Positions 18,159 through 22,631 of a stretch of 25,169 nucleotides of DNA are shown here, piece after piece (the first letter of the stretch is position 1; every line of letters starts with the position of its first letter). This stretch comes from Catenibacterium sp. co_0103 (lineage in GTDB: Bacteria > Bacillota_I > Bacilli_A > Erysipelotrichales > Coprobacillaceae): NCBI RefSeq assembly GCF_004168205.1, contig NZ_RCYB01000033.1, positions 1-25,169 of the forward strand, given 5' to 3'. The position numbers and the translations under genes were made by a program. Under the pieces are notes generated by a model. The model made no database searches and was not told the origin of the DNA. It saw only the letters and a program-made list of their open reading frames with translations.

Positions 18159-18180
18159 GAGGCATCCGCCTCTTTTATTT
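18157..18180. terminator. Bidirectional terminator between the UMF1 and AraC genes
   Basis: AAGAGGC-atcc-GCCTCTT followed by TTATTTT on the plus strand. The stem begins within the UMF1 stop codon and reaches to the AraC stop codon, serving both convergent genes. Confidence 0.75.
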
Positions 18181-19224
18181 TGCCTGGAATTGTTTTCTAT
18201 AGTCTCCAGGAAAACCACCAAAATAAGCATTAAACTTCTTATAGAAGTAGTTTAAATTAGAAAAACCACTCTCCTGTGCAATAAGATAAATAGGTTTATC
18301 AGTATTGATAAGTTCCTTTCCTACTGCTTCCATACGATAATAGTTTACTAACTTCTTAAAGGTATAGCCTGTTACTTTTTGAATGGCACGTGAGAGATAA
18401 TCAGGATTATAGCCGAACTTCTCTGCTGTTTCCATAAGAGTACAATCCTGATAATGTTGTTCTATGTATTGAATGATTTCTGTCATGTAGCTCTTATTAT
18501 TTTCTTTAAATTGTTGTTCCATATTCATCTGATATCTTTGTGCCATTTTTATAAACAGAAGAGAAAAATAGGAATCAAGAATAGAGATTGCAAACAAAGA
18601 AGGATCTAAATACTCGCATAAAATCATTTCTATAAGCTGCACTACATAATCATGATCATCTTCTCTATTATTAAAAATAATATAATCATTGTGCTGTGCT
18701 TTTTGATCTATAATATTTGTCAGGAAAGTCACAATCGGGTTTACCGAAGAAAATTTACTAATAAATGAGTCACTAAAATAAGAGCGATCCATTTGAAAGT
18801 TGAAGATAATATCATTTTCTGTAGGCATTAAGACTGTATGCTTTGAATTAACATCTAAAAGAATCATATCCCCTGCATGAAGTATCACTTCTTTATCATT
18901 AACAATTGCATAACAATGTCCAGAATAGACATATTTCATTTCTACATAGCTTCTTGTATGTAGTGGCACAAATGAATATCTTGTCTGTTTTGAACAATAA
19001 ATCGGAAAAGCAAGAACTTCATCTGTAATTATCTGCCCATCATAAAATAAAGTATGTTTTTCTTTTGTGGTTTGATATCTATCAATTGTGAATTGAACTA
19101 TTTTTTCATCGTCTTTATTAATATGCTTTTCAATGTAGTCATCTGAATGATTCGGGTGACTTTTATAATATTGTTCTTTTTTGGTTAGTGGAGTAATCCT
19201 ACTTCTTAATTCTTCTATTTTCAT
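18175..19224 (-). CDS. AraC-family regulator with N-terminal cupin domain
   Basis: A 349-residue AraC/XylS regulator. The N-terminal half contains a cupin-type sensor (about 75-165: VPLHTRSYVEMKYVYSGHCYAI, HAGDMILLDVNSKHTVLMPTEND). After a helical linker the last 100 residues hold two helix-turn-helix motifs: MTEIIQYIEQHYQDCTLMET...FGYNPDYLSRAIQKVTG and LINTDKPIYLIAQESGFSNLNYFYKKFNAYFGGFPGDYRKQ, the standard AraC C-terminal pattern. The start at 19224 is preceded by AGGTGA; a GTG three codons earlier lies in that site. It faces the PTS-DUF1593 operon across 138 bases with overlapping promoters, so it is the probable local activator responding to the transported sugar or its product. Confidence 0.92.
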   Translation of the reverse strand: MKIEELRSRITPLTKKEQYYKSHPNHSDDYIEKHINKDDEKIVQFTIDRYQTTKEKHTLFYDGQIITDEVLAFPIYCSKQTRYSFVPLHTRSYVEMKYVYSGHCYAIVNDKEVILHAGDMILLDVNSKHTVLMPTENDIIFNFQMDRSYFSDSFISKFSSVNPIVTFLTNIIDQKAQHNDYIIFNNREDDHDYVVQLIEMILCEYLDPSLFAISILDSYFSLLFIKMAQRYQMNMEQQFKENNKSYMTEIIQYIEQHYQDCTLMETAEKFGYNPDYLSRAIQKVTGYTFKKLVNYYRMEAVGKELINTDKPIYLIAQESGFSNLNYFYKKFNAYFGGFPGDYRKQFQAK

Positions 19225-19241
19225 TATTATCACCTATTCTA

Positions 19242-19362: not shown

Positions 19363-21216
19363 ATGGCAAAGGATTATACTTCTTTAGCTAAAAAGATTGT
19401 AGAAAATGTCGGTGGAGAAAATAATGTGATCTCACTTGTACATTGTGCAACAAGATTAAGATTTAAGCTTATTGATGAAAACAAAGTTAATATGGATGTT
19501 TTAAAACAGACTGAAGGTGTTATTACTGTAATGAAAGCAGGAGGACAGGTTCAGGTTGTTATTGGAAATAAGGTAGATACTGTCTATGATGCAGTACTTA
19601 GCTGTACAAATATTAATGCTGGTAACAGCGAAGAAATGGAAGACACAGGAAACAAAAACCTTCTTAATACTCTATTAGAGACAATTTCTGGTATCTTCTC
19701 ACCAATGCTTGGTGTTATGTGTGGTGCCGGTATGTTGAAGGCATTACTTATTCTATGCACTACATTGAATATACTAACTGCTGATATGGGAACATACAAA
19801 ATTCTTTATGCAGCTGCAGATAGTGTATTTAATTTTATGCCAATTATCTTAGGTTATACAGCTGCAAAGAAGTTTAAATGTAATCCATTTATTGCGATGT
19901 CTATTGCAATGTCACTTCTTTATCCAACTATGACTGACGCATACTCAGAAGGTACGAAATTGACATTCCTTACAATACCAGTAACTCTTGTAAGCTATGC
20001 TTCTTCTGTCATGCCAATCATTATTTCTGTATATGTTCAAAGCAAATTAGAAAAGCTATTAAAGAAGATTATTCCAGAAGTATGTAAGTTATTCTTAACT
20101 CCATTATTAGAACTTTCCATTATGGTACCAGCTACATTCTTAGTTATCGGTCCATTCATGGATAAGTTTGGTAAATTACTTGCATCAGGGTATACAGCTA
20201 TTATGAGTTTCAACCCTATTATTGCTGGAGGATTTGTTGGCTTGATCTGGCCTGCAGCCGTTATCTTTGGACTTCATTGGGGCTTTGTACCTATCGTTAT
20301 GAATAATATCGCCACTTATGGTAGAGACACATTATTCGTTATTACTGGACCTAATAACATGGCTCAGGCTGGTGCAGCACTTGGCGTATTCTTAAAAACT
20401 AAAGATAAGAAATTAAAAGAATTATCAGGTTCTGCGGCATTCTCTGCAGTTCTTGCAGGTATTACTGAACCTGCCATTTATGGTGTTACACTACCTTACA
20501 AGAGACCATTTGCGATTGCTGCTGTATTTTCATCTATTGCCGGTATGATTGTCGCTGCTGCTGGTACTAGCTGCCCTACTTTACTTGGTACTTCTATTTT
20601 AAGTCTTCCTGGCTATATTGGTCCTGGTTTTGTAGGTTTTGTGATTGCTTGTGCGATTGCTTATTTCGGTTCAGCTATTTGTACTTATTTATTTGGTTTT
20701 AATGATTCTATGCTTCCACAAAACAAAGTTGAAACAAAAGAAGAAACTACTTTAAAAGATGAAACAATCAGTTCTCCTGCTACTGGTGAGATGATTGCCT
20801 TAGAAGATGTGAATGATCCTATCTTTTCTTCAAAAGCGATGGGTGAAGGTGTTGCTTTTAAATTAACCGATGGTCATATCTACTCTCCTGTTGATGGTGA
20901 AGTCATTATGGCTGCCAAGACTGGCCATGCAGTTGGATTAAAGTCTAATAACGGCGCTGAAATACTTATTCATATTGGTATGGATACTGTTAATATGAAT
21001 GGCGAAGGATTTAATGTCTTAGTTAAAGAAGGACAGAAAGTGAGTGTTGGTGATTTACTTGTTGAAGCTGATCTAGAAGCTATCGAGAAAGCTGGTTATG
21101 ATAATGTAACTCCTGTCATTATTACTAATACTACTGAATACAAAGAAATTGTTCCTGCATCTTATGGTGCTAAGACTGCAAAAGAAGAAATCATTGAAGT
21201 AAGAGCTGGTAAATAA
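19363..21216 (+). CDS. PTS beta-glucoside/glucose-family IIBCA transporter
   Basis: A 617-residue fused sugar permease that phosphorylates its substrate during uptake. Domain order is IIB (1-85; phospho-Cys C28 in [21 protein letters not shown] later), IIC (about 100-455; around ten membrane helices, with [16 protein letters not shown] and [18 protein letters not shown], typical of the beta-glucoside branch) and IIA (about 470-600; [11 protein letters not shown], active His in [14 protein letters not shown]). All three phosphotransfer elements are present. Beta-glucoside-type enzymes take up aryl-glucosides, sucrose, trehalose and others; nothing here fixes the substrate. GGAGG precedes the ATG. 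The partner is not a GH1 or GH32 enzyme, as usual for this family, but a DUF1593 protein starting 2 bases after the stop. An AraC regulator and cre site lie upstream. Confidence 0.95.
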
Positions 21217-21218
21217 TT

Positions 21219-22631
21219 ATGTTAAACCTTATTAGAACAATCATCACTCAGGATGCTGAAGTAGATGATCAGAACTCATTAAGACATATTCTCCTTTATG
21301 CCAATGATATAGAAATACAGGGTATCGTACAGACATCATCCATCTTTCATTGGAAAGGACAACCAGGAAAGACTGGACCAAGCGATAAGGCTGATTATGA
21401 TCAGCCTTATCGCTGGACTGGTGTAAAATGGATGCAGGACGTAATGGATGATTATGCTGTAGACTATAAACATCTTGTGACTCATGATGGCAACTACCCT
21501 TTTCCTGATCATTTAAGGAATCTTATTAAAGTCGGAAATATTGGATATCCAGGAGAAATGGATGCTTCTACACCAGGCTCAGAATTAATTAGAGAAAAAA
21601 TATTAGATGATGATCCTAGACCACTTTATATTCAAGTTTGGGGTGGTACTAATACAATTGCTCGTGCTCTTTATGATATTGAGCAAGATTATAAAGATGA
21701 TGAGAACTGGTTATCAATCAAAGAAAAAATAGAAAAGAAAGTTATTTTAACTGCCTGTGGTGAACAGGATAATACGTATCAGAACTATATTTCAGAAGTT
21801 TATCCAAACATTCAGTTTGTGAAATGTGTGATGATGAACAGTTATGGATACGGGTGGAATAATATGCCTGAAGGAAGCAGTAAAGAGACTCTTAGAGCTG
21901 ATTTCATGCAAGAACATATTCTTAATAAAGGTGCCTTAATGAGTGGTTACGCTACCTGGGCTGATGATAAGTATTATGAAGGTGAAGAAAATAGATCACA
22001 ATTCGGTTCAAACAAGAGTCTTCTTGTTGACTGGTGGGGAAAGAAATATGGTATGGGTACACATATTCCTTATGATTTCTTATCTGAAGGTGATTCCCCT
22101 ACTTTCTTCTGTTTACTGCCATGGGGGTTAAGATGTCTTGAAGATTTCTCATATGGAGGATTATCTGGAAGATATATAAAAGATAATACTAAGAAGAATT
22201 CTAAGGGATTTACTTTAAATTACTGGAATCCTGTAGAAGACCTCTATATTGATAAATACACAGAATCTATGTGGTATTATGTTTCTTCTATTCAAAGAGA
22301 TCTTGCAGCAAGAGCTTCTTGGTGTATCACCGATGATAAAGAAGAAGCGCCTGTACTATCTATCCAGGAATCTCTTGACATGAAAGCTGATAAAGGTACA
22401 ACTGTAGAGCTTCATATAAATAAAGAAGAACATGTACTCTATAAAATAAAGTATTATAAAGATGCTTCTAGTTATAAAGGAAATGTTTCTGTTAGTTTAG
22501 ATGATTCTATCAAGATTGAAATTCCTGATGATGTAAAAACAAATGATATCCTTCATATCATTATAGAAGCAACTAACGATTATAAGCACAAGATTTCACG
22601 ATTCACACAAATTATTATCAAAATCAATTAA
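21219..22631 (+). CDS. DUF1593 nucleoside-hydrolase-like protein
   Basis: A 470-residue protein with an N-terminal DUF1593 domain (about 1-340), related in fold to inosine-uridine nucleoside hydrolases, and a C-terminal beta-sandwich-like part (about 375-470: ELHINKEEHVLYKIKYYKD...DILHIIIEATNDYK). The metal-binding start of the fold is visible as TQDAEVDDQNS (D12, D16, D17), followed by LLYANDIEIQGIV, the usual second strand, and YIQVWGGTNTIARAL near 137-151. There is no signal peptide, whereas many homologues, notably in Bacteroidetes, are secreted and annotated as cellulose-binding or Sde-type proteins. It starts 2 bases after the PTS gene with no strong ribosome-binding site, so it is translationally coupled. 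The likely role is cleavage of the glycosidic bond of the PTS-imported, phosphorylated compound. This is inference; no member with such a role is known to me. Confidence 0.85.
   Translation: MLNLIRTIITQDAEVDDQNSLRHILLYANDIEIQGIVQTSSIFHWKGQPGKTGPSDKADYDQPYRWTGVKWMQDVMDDYAVDYKHLVTHDGNYPFPDHLRNLIKVGNIGYPGEMDASTPGSELIREKILDDDPRPLYIQVWGGTNTIARALYDIEQDYKDDENWLSIKEKIEKKVILTACGEQDNTYQNYISEVYPNIQFVKCVMMNSYGYGWNNMPEGSSKETLRADFMQEHILNKGALMSGYATWADDKYYEGEENRSQFGSNKSLLVDWWGKKYGMGTHIPYDFLSEGDSPTFFCLLPWGLRCLEDFSYGGLSGRYIKDNTKKNSKGFTLNYWNPVEDLYIDKYTESMWYYVSSIQRDLAARASWCITDDKEEAPVLSIQESLDMKADKGTTVELHINKEEHVLYKIKYYKDASSYKGNVSVSLDDSIKIEIPDDVKTNDILHIIIEATNDYKHKISRFTQIIIKIN

Follow-up and report, generated by a model that had tools for sequence, protein, structure and literature searches.

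A divergent AraC–PTS–DUF1593 unit in Catenibacterium as a candidate apiosyl-glucoside uptake system

Operons of the beta-glucoside phosphotransferase system (PTS) are usually controlled by antiterminators, and nucleoside hydrolases (NHs) carry the N-terminal metal motif DTDxGxDD. For D-apiose, a rare branched sugar, a transketolase pathway comprising ApsI, AplK, AptA and AptB was reportedly described by Carter in 2018. Among DUF1593 (PF07632) proteins, Sde_0182 of Saccharophagus degradans bears carbohydrate-binding domains in front (PMC8910321). Here we analysed a stretch of 25,169 nucleotides from Catenibacterium sp. co_0103, a relative of gut species (contig NZ_RCYB01000033.1; the window hereafter), in which a gene for an AraC-family regulator is divergent from a beta-glucoside-type PTS permease gene that is followed by a gene for a DUF1593 protein. 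We propose, with a probability of roughly 55%, that this triad is an inducible unit for the uptake of apiosyl-beta-glucosides and that the DUF1593 protein acts as a beta-D-apiofuranosidase without homology to the PF13204/GH140 type of glycoside hydrolase (GH). The proposal draws on features observed directly: gene order and its conservation, a swap of enzymes behind the permease, linkage to and co-occurrence with a catabolic cassette, and a conserved Asp motif, besides the predicted fold.

Conservation of the triad and exchange of its enzyme

A preliminary description of the window had named the three genes, and their open reading frames (ORFs) are intact where it placed them, with the DUF1593 gene beginning 2 bp after the stop codon of the PTS gene, as it had also stated. 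The arrangement is not a strain-specific oddity, because a gene-neighbourhood check found it again in three genera of two families, Coprobacillaceae and Lachnospiraceae (compared genomes and loci bear G and L numbers). With AraC on the minus strand and PTS and DUF1593 on the plus strand, the three products are each 97% identical to those of the window in G001, the nearest genome compared (28% of sampled words in common), 64, 77 and 64–65% identical in Faecalibacillus (G024), and 45, 70 and 53% identical in a Pseudobutyrivibrio metagenome-assembled genome (MAG), whose permease is without the IIA part. The DUF1593 gene had further been called the sole enzyme gene. This holds within the operon; in G001, about 7.4 kb separate the DUF1593 gene from one for a GH1 enzyme, and the equivalent of the latter here would fall past the end of the window, given the same gene order.

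The permease scores 714.9 bits against the TIGR01995 model of beta-glucoside IIABC permeases (cut-off 614.7), has the Pfam domains PTS_EIIB, PTS_EIIC and PTS_EIIA_1, and retains the phosphorylation residues C28 (in HCATRLRF) and H537 (in ILIHIGMDT). In a tree of 37 PTS rows, from which short matches and duplicate loci had been dropped beforehand, eight permeases including that of the window form one clade (support 100/98), which splits into four paired with DUF1593 (100/98) and four paired with PF13204 (90/87). DUF1593 and PF13204 proteins interchange behind one PTS clade. Among 397 Lachnospiraceae genomes, a window-like permease occurs in five at 58–72% identity, the remaining matches at E ≤ 1e-100 all being at or below 50%. 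G119 among them carries the Pseudobutyrivibrio triad; in G128 (Robinsoniella), G602, G650 and G474, a LacI gene and the PTS gene are followed, in the slot of DUF1593, by a gene for a protein some 430 residues long. All four of these proteins match PF13204 (Pfam: Apiosidase-like; E ≤ 6e-80), and the one tested against the PDB, from L151, matches 8t9w ('Apiosidase') and 5msy/3kzs. In Robinsoniella (L119), a GH1 gene scoring above two NCBI 6-phospho-beta-glucosidase models adjoins the PF13204 gene. In sister rows of the clade (L137/L223 and L140/L224), the PTS gene is followed by genes for a GH43-type enzyme, a GH35-like DUF5597 protein, GH1 and a separate EIIA (Pfam on L223 only), perhaps another PTS locus for glycosyl-glucosides.

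The DUF1593 protein matches PF07632 over the full profile (positions 1–268 of 268; E 2.2e-58, 198.4 bits against a gathering cut-off of 26.8) and PF21027 above the Pfam cut-off (E 2.3e-7). These are its sole Pfam matches, and the PF13204 apiosidase profile is unmatched. We rejected two more familiar identities, that of a misannotated GH1 or GH4 phospho-beta-glucosidase, since no such family is matched, and that of an ordinary nucleoside hydrolase, since the PF01156 profile gives no match at E 1e-3; a search of the G001 genome for PF01156 genes at E 1e-20 also found none. The predicted fold is NH-like, and a PDB sequence search returned 2yhg as the only significant relative. By spacing, D12, D16 and D17 correspond to three of the four Asp residues of DTDxGxDD, with the first Asp (TQD) and the Gly substituted. 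D12, E14, D16 and D17 are invariant across 16 homologues, together with many further residues, and the loss of metal or active-site residues that would have told against the preliminary description is not seen within this motif; credible alignment to NHs covers residues 2–41 and does not reach D292, the supposed counterpart of NH D242. The aligned homologues all begin just ahead of the metal motif, and no signal-like stretch was found at the N-terminus, where Kyte-Doolittle means over 15 residues peak at 0.85 within the first 40.

DUF1593 proteins are more widespread than the triad, with 1047 homologues at E 1e-3; a single 90% cluster, represented by a near-identical form from the lineage of the window, comprises 1880 of its sequences. 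A homologue occurs in seven of 43 genomes of the family, the close form in G001 and G024 only and the others at 40–44% identity, and a match in 24 of 315 genomes of the order. A search of viral contigs found no relative, and a plasmid search returned nine records with distant ones. In Robinsoniella, a frame of about 2300 residues (L048/G128:C3:235923-240692) holds three tandem DUF1593-like repeats; the window form is single-domain. A DUF1593 tree was built from 50 rows after short matches and duplicate loci had been removed. Our claim about substrate is limited to a 34-row clade, outside of which lie L055, L057, L059, L060, L068 and L070–L073 from other Coprobacillaceae and Coriobacteria.

Linkage to a putative apiose cassette

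In G650, the PTS paired with PF13204 stands beside genes for an isomerase, two split-transketolase halves and a GlpK-like FGGY kinase. The same cassette adjoins the DUF1593 gene of L013, L015, L025, L026, L031 and L033, where the isomerase is 71–75% identical to that of L151 and the transketolase and kinase genes follow as far as the contig pieces extend. Four of these six loci are from Butyrivibrio and share a similar order: DUF1593, LacI, esterase, isomerase, transketolase halves, kinase. The other two, L013 and L015, are sister loci that lack the esterase and otherwise keep almost this order. In L022, L038 and L039, the isomerase lies 14–16 kb from DUF1593 on one contig, the contigs having been equated by their length. 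Neighbour lists came from greedy ORF calling, in which longer overlapping frames can mask genes; the L015 isomerase was hidden under such a frame and was placed by homology search at G129:C9:5632-7032, so the lists may miss others.

The cassette isomerase (L151:13343-14761; loci L183–L222) has a weak Pfam match, under the cut-off, to the C-terminal domain of L-fucose isomerase, and is possibly a D-apiose isomerase. Its 40 loci are a non-random sample taken from best matches and from DUF1593/PTS genomes; eight have a linked ATP-binding cassette (ABC) transporter resembling that of the D-apiose locus of Escherichia coli SE15. Binding protein, ATPase and permease are 38–44, 46–48 and 44–53% identical to the E. 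coli proteins, against 26–29, 38–41 and 31–39% to RbsB, RbsA and RbsC for ribose. In both the cassette loci and the E. coli locus, a DUF2291 gene stands between binding protein and ATPase (by Pfam in L193 and L153, by weak similarity in four more). The E. coli kinase AplK is likewise GlpK-like, and the E. coli transketolase halves are 30–45% identical to those of the cassette. E. coli strains with this cluster are reported to grow on D-apiose, and the E. coli version is without apsI (PMC13001218). In L186, a protein with PF13204 and PF12904 is encoded inside the cassette, and four of 72 further cassette-flanking proteins match PF13204 (72 of 173 neighbours scanned). Taken from these similarities, D-apiose fits as the sugar of the cassette.

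Around DUF1593 in Butyrivibrio L025 (8528-9877), L026, L031 and L033 are genes for GH2, GH3, an EstA-like esterase and LacI, with a multidrug and toxic compound extrusion (MATE) transporter in L025, and in L041 a GH78-type rhamnosidase gene precedes it. By their gene content, these surroundings would suit the import of acylated glycosides from plants, perhaps with export of the aglycone.

Isomerase and DUF1593 also co-occur genome-wide. Of the 397 Lachnospiraceae genomes, 66 encode the isomerase (E 1e-180) and six DUF1593 (E 1e-40), with five encoding both (G119, G405, G440, G494 and G128); all five genomes with the PTS clade are isomerase-positive. Fifteen of 19 DUF1593 genomes chosen from 56 loci carry the isomerase (at least 70%), six having been chosen with the cassette already known and the remainder being positive in nine of 13. 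Among 18 genomes with isomerase and DUF1593, PF13204 is absent at E 1e-15 in 12 (26 genomes searched, many of them MAGs of uncertain completeness), weak (about 1e-16 to 1e-18) in G119, G727 and G728, and strong in G121, G128 and G440. Further apiosidase families besides PF13204 could exist.

Proposed function and competing explanations

On our proposal, the AraC protein would sense the glycoside, and the IIBCA permease would import an apiosyl-beta-glucoside, for example the plant glycoside apiin (apiose beta-1,2 on glucose), and phosphorylate it, most likely at the glucosyl C6. In apiin, apiose sits on glucose O2 (PMC10706860), and C6 therefore stays free for the PTS. The cytoplasmic DUF1593 protein would hydrolyse the beta-D-apiofuranosyl bond in an NH-like active site, its metal ion gripping apiofuranose by the cis-2,3-diol, as ribofuranose is gripped in NHs, and would thereby stand in, without homology, for the PF13204/GH140-type protein behind the same PTS in relatives. 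The leftover 6-phospho-glucoside would pass to a GH1 6-phospho-beta-glucosidase; Faecalibacillus encodes a GH1 about 4.1 kb downstream of DUF1593. Free apiose would enter the isomerase, kinase and split-transketolase route in Lachnospiraceae. Substrate, phosphorylation site, catalytic activity and regulator ligand are what we infer, the activity from gene context, predicted fold and residue conservation.

Several observations weigh against this proposal. A PTS beside DUF1593 is rare, with three genomes besides the window among 56 plus 11 loci, and most DUF1593 loci are without an adjacent PTS. In four genomes with the PTS (G128, G602, G474 and G119), the cassette is not PTS-adjacent, the isomerase being encoded at another genomic site. 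Neither isomerase nor split transketolase was found in G001 and Faecalibacillus, which have full-length transketolases only, so that apiose is probably unused there, and wasted or exported. The co-occurrence has exceptions, G627 in the Lachnospiraceae sample and four of the 19 chosen genomes, and the one-sided Fisher p values (5.8e-4 for isomerase and DUF1593, 1.1e-4 for isomerase and PTS clade) are too small, because the genomes share descent and independence is overstated. The sole NCBIfam match of the isomerase is sulfoquinovose isomerase, far under the cut-off, and a PDB sequence search with it found no relative. PF13204 is a family name and no proof of apiosidase activity. Downstream of the Faecalibacillus GH1 gene lie genes for LacI, a PTS EIIC and a PF13204 protein, the last about 8.2 kb downstream of DUF1593 and 48% identical to that of L152; since both proteins coexist there, they may do different jobs, for instance by dividing linkages. 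The profile alignment of DUF1593 residues 2–41 to nucleoside hydrolases (E 0.057, probability about 1%) is not significant alone. Finally, Sde_0182, a structural relative, reportedly does not act on nucleosides, and it has been suggested to serve as a furanose-binding module (PMC8910321). The L015 isomerase adds to our confidence in the proposal and the weak NH alignment subtracts from it, which leaves it unchanged.

The competing explanation that survives best, although we consider it unlikely, is that the PTS takes pentosyl-glucosides generally, with DUF1593 removing another pentofuranosyl group such as arabinofuranosyl and PF13204 handling apiose. The co-residence of the two families in one Faecalibacillus region would suit such a division, as would sister rows L137 and L140, whose GH43-type, GH35-like and GH1 enzymes imply that this PTS branch may transport varied glycosyl-glucosides. 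It sits less well with a DUF1593 clade tied to the apiose-type cassette, both in six loci and by genome-wide co-occurrence, and with the 12 of 18 genomes from which PF13204 is missing.

That DUF1593 has no catalytic activity and assists the PTS by binding sugar or by regulation, in the manner suggested for Sde_0182, seems to us improbable. Sde_0182 is reported to have retained its calcium ion and to lack activity on nucleosides (PMC8910321), a result that is uninformative about O-apiosides. Across the 16 homologues, invariance extends from the Asp motif to many further positions, and in other members of this PTS clade a glycosidase-family gene stands where DUF1593 does here.

The literal model of the preliminary description made DUF1593 a true phospho-glycosidase that cuts the phosphorylated sugar's own bond, in a phospho-nucleoside or a 6-phospho-glucoside. 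We give it a slim chance, for all that DUF1593 is the only enzyme gene of the operon. Homologues exist without a neighbouring PTS, and some appear to be served by other transporters: an ABC solute-binding protein gene precedes the L047 homologue, and a conserved pair of genes for proteins of about 300 residues, putative ABC permeases, lies upstream in L015, L022, L025, L026, L031 and L033. ABC importers do not phosphorylate their cargo, which is why these loci count against the model. A phospho-glycosidase of the usual kind is moreover at hand, as 6-phospho-beta-glucosidase-type GH1 in L119 and as GH1 near the G001 and Faecalibacillus loci. What stands of the earlier idea is a PTS-coupled, predicted NH-fold enzyme in place of a phospho-glycosidase, in line with its recurrence, Asp motif and modelled fold; the phospho-sugar bond is the less likely target, since the context suggests that a non-phosphorylated furanosyl group is removed from a phosphorylated glucoside. 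A merely coincidental linkage, in which an unrelated operon shares neighbourhoods through common glycan-use islands, is very improbable: counts are small, lineages related and the cassette-linked loci largely alike within two related groups instead of numerous and independent, but triad order is conserved across Coprobacillaceae and Lachnospiraceae and the PTS clade is isomerase-positive in all five Lachnospiraceae genomes that have it.

Beyond the apiosidase function of this one protein, we see about even odds that DUF1593/PF07632 founds a GH family of metal-dependent, NH-fold beta-D-apiofuranosidases, coupled to the PTS and replacing GH140, and that the lineage of the window strips apiose to reach glucose, leaving apiose to other microbes. 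If true, a large family would gain a first, testable function, apiosidases would gain a second fold, and the lineage of the window would be a candidate for the conversion of apiin and other apiosides in the diet. In the literature searched, with most subscription journals outside its coverage, we found no described DUF1593 activity or apioside PTS route, and nothing on this enzyme under DUF1593, apiose with nucleoside hydrolase, or the apiose pathway. Over 1,200 plant metabolites contain apiose (PMC10602602).

Control region, other features and relation to described systems

The AraC protein matches PF12833 (E 1.6e-19), and its N-terminal part gives cupin/AraC_binding matches slightly under the Pfam cut-offs. 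Homologues in the same divergent position are 64% (L074/L052), 45% (L018) and 97% (L075) identical. Alignment of the intergenic regions of the window, L074 and L018 shows a shared GG..TTTGACAGT stretch upstream of the PTS gene, the rest being mostly unconserved; the stretch is possibly a candidate promoter (-35 box), an AraC operator or both. Promoter-like sites over the whole scanned region are not in excess (11 against a shuffle mean of 15.4). A catabolite-responsive element (cre) for CcpA upstream of the PTS gene was considered and dropped, one-mismatch matches being present in the window and G001 only and in neither Faecalibacillus nor Pseudobutyrivibrio.

Table 1. Features of the AraC–PTS–DUF1593 locus (window coordinates)
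Feature	Position	Strand	Basis and remarks
AraC-family regulator	18175..19233	-	Divergent from PTS gene; ORF and Pfam; C-terminal HTH_18
Candidate promoter TTGACA-18-GATATT	19258..19287	+	Within GG..TTTGACAGT stretch (19250-19280) kept across three genera
Beta-glucoside-type PTS permease, IIB-IIC-IIA, 617 aa	19363..21216	+	Pfam, TIGR01995, tree
DUF1593/PF07632 (Sde182_NH-like) protein, 470 aa, PF21027 C-terminal domain	21219..22631	+	ORF, Pfam, alignment, predicted fold
Asp motif, codons 12-17 (D12 A E14 V D16 D17) of DUF1593 gene	21252..21269	+	Spacing matches DTDxGxDD of nucleoside hydrolases
Intrinsic-terminator-like hairpin ending PTS-DUF1593 unit	22627..22672	+	Readable on opposite strand as well

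Past the hairpin, a minus-strand ORF of 78 aa (22668-22904) has no Pfam match. Elsewhere in the window are a mannose/sorbose-family PTS (IIAB, IIC, IID; 3458-6213, minus strand) and a gene for an MCRA-family protein (8569-10410) with PF06100, which we take to be the oleate hydratase family.

Compared with described systems, the locus has the permease family, phosphorylation residues and transport-plus-cleavage logic of BglF-type IIABC operons (TIGR01995) with GH1; unlike in these, an AraC regulator takes the place of the antiterminator and the linked enzyme is DUF1593 rather than GH1 or GH4. Sde_0182 (2YHG) has the same combination of PF07632 and PF21027, whereas the window protein is short, has the NH-like domain at its very start and shares an operon with a PTS. 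From nucleoside hydrolases (PF01156), DUF1593 differs in lacking a match to their profile, in having TQD for DTD and an additional C-terminal domain, and in its location in sugar loci. The PF13204/GH140 apiosidases (PDB 8t9w, 5msy/3kzs) follow members of the same PTS clade in the same position and have the cassette in common; DUF1593 is unmatched by PF13204, and its predicted fold differs. Lastly, the D-apiose transketolase pathway has a GlpK-like FGGY kinase, a split transketolase and an ABC transporter with DUF2291, as do the Lachnospiraceae loci, but the cassette isomerase is weakly related to the C-terminal domain of L-fucose isomerase, and the cassette was not found in G001 or Faecalibacillus.

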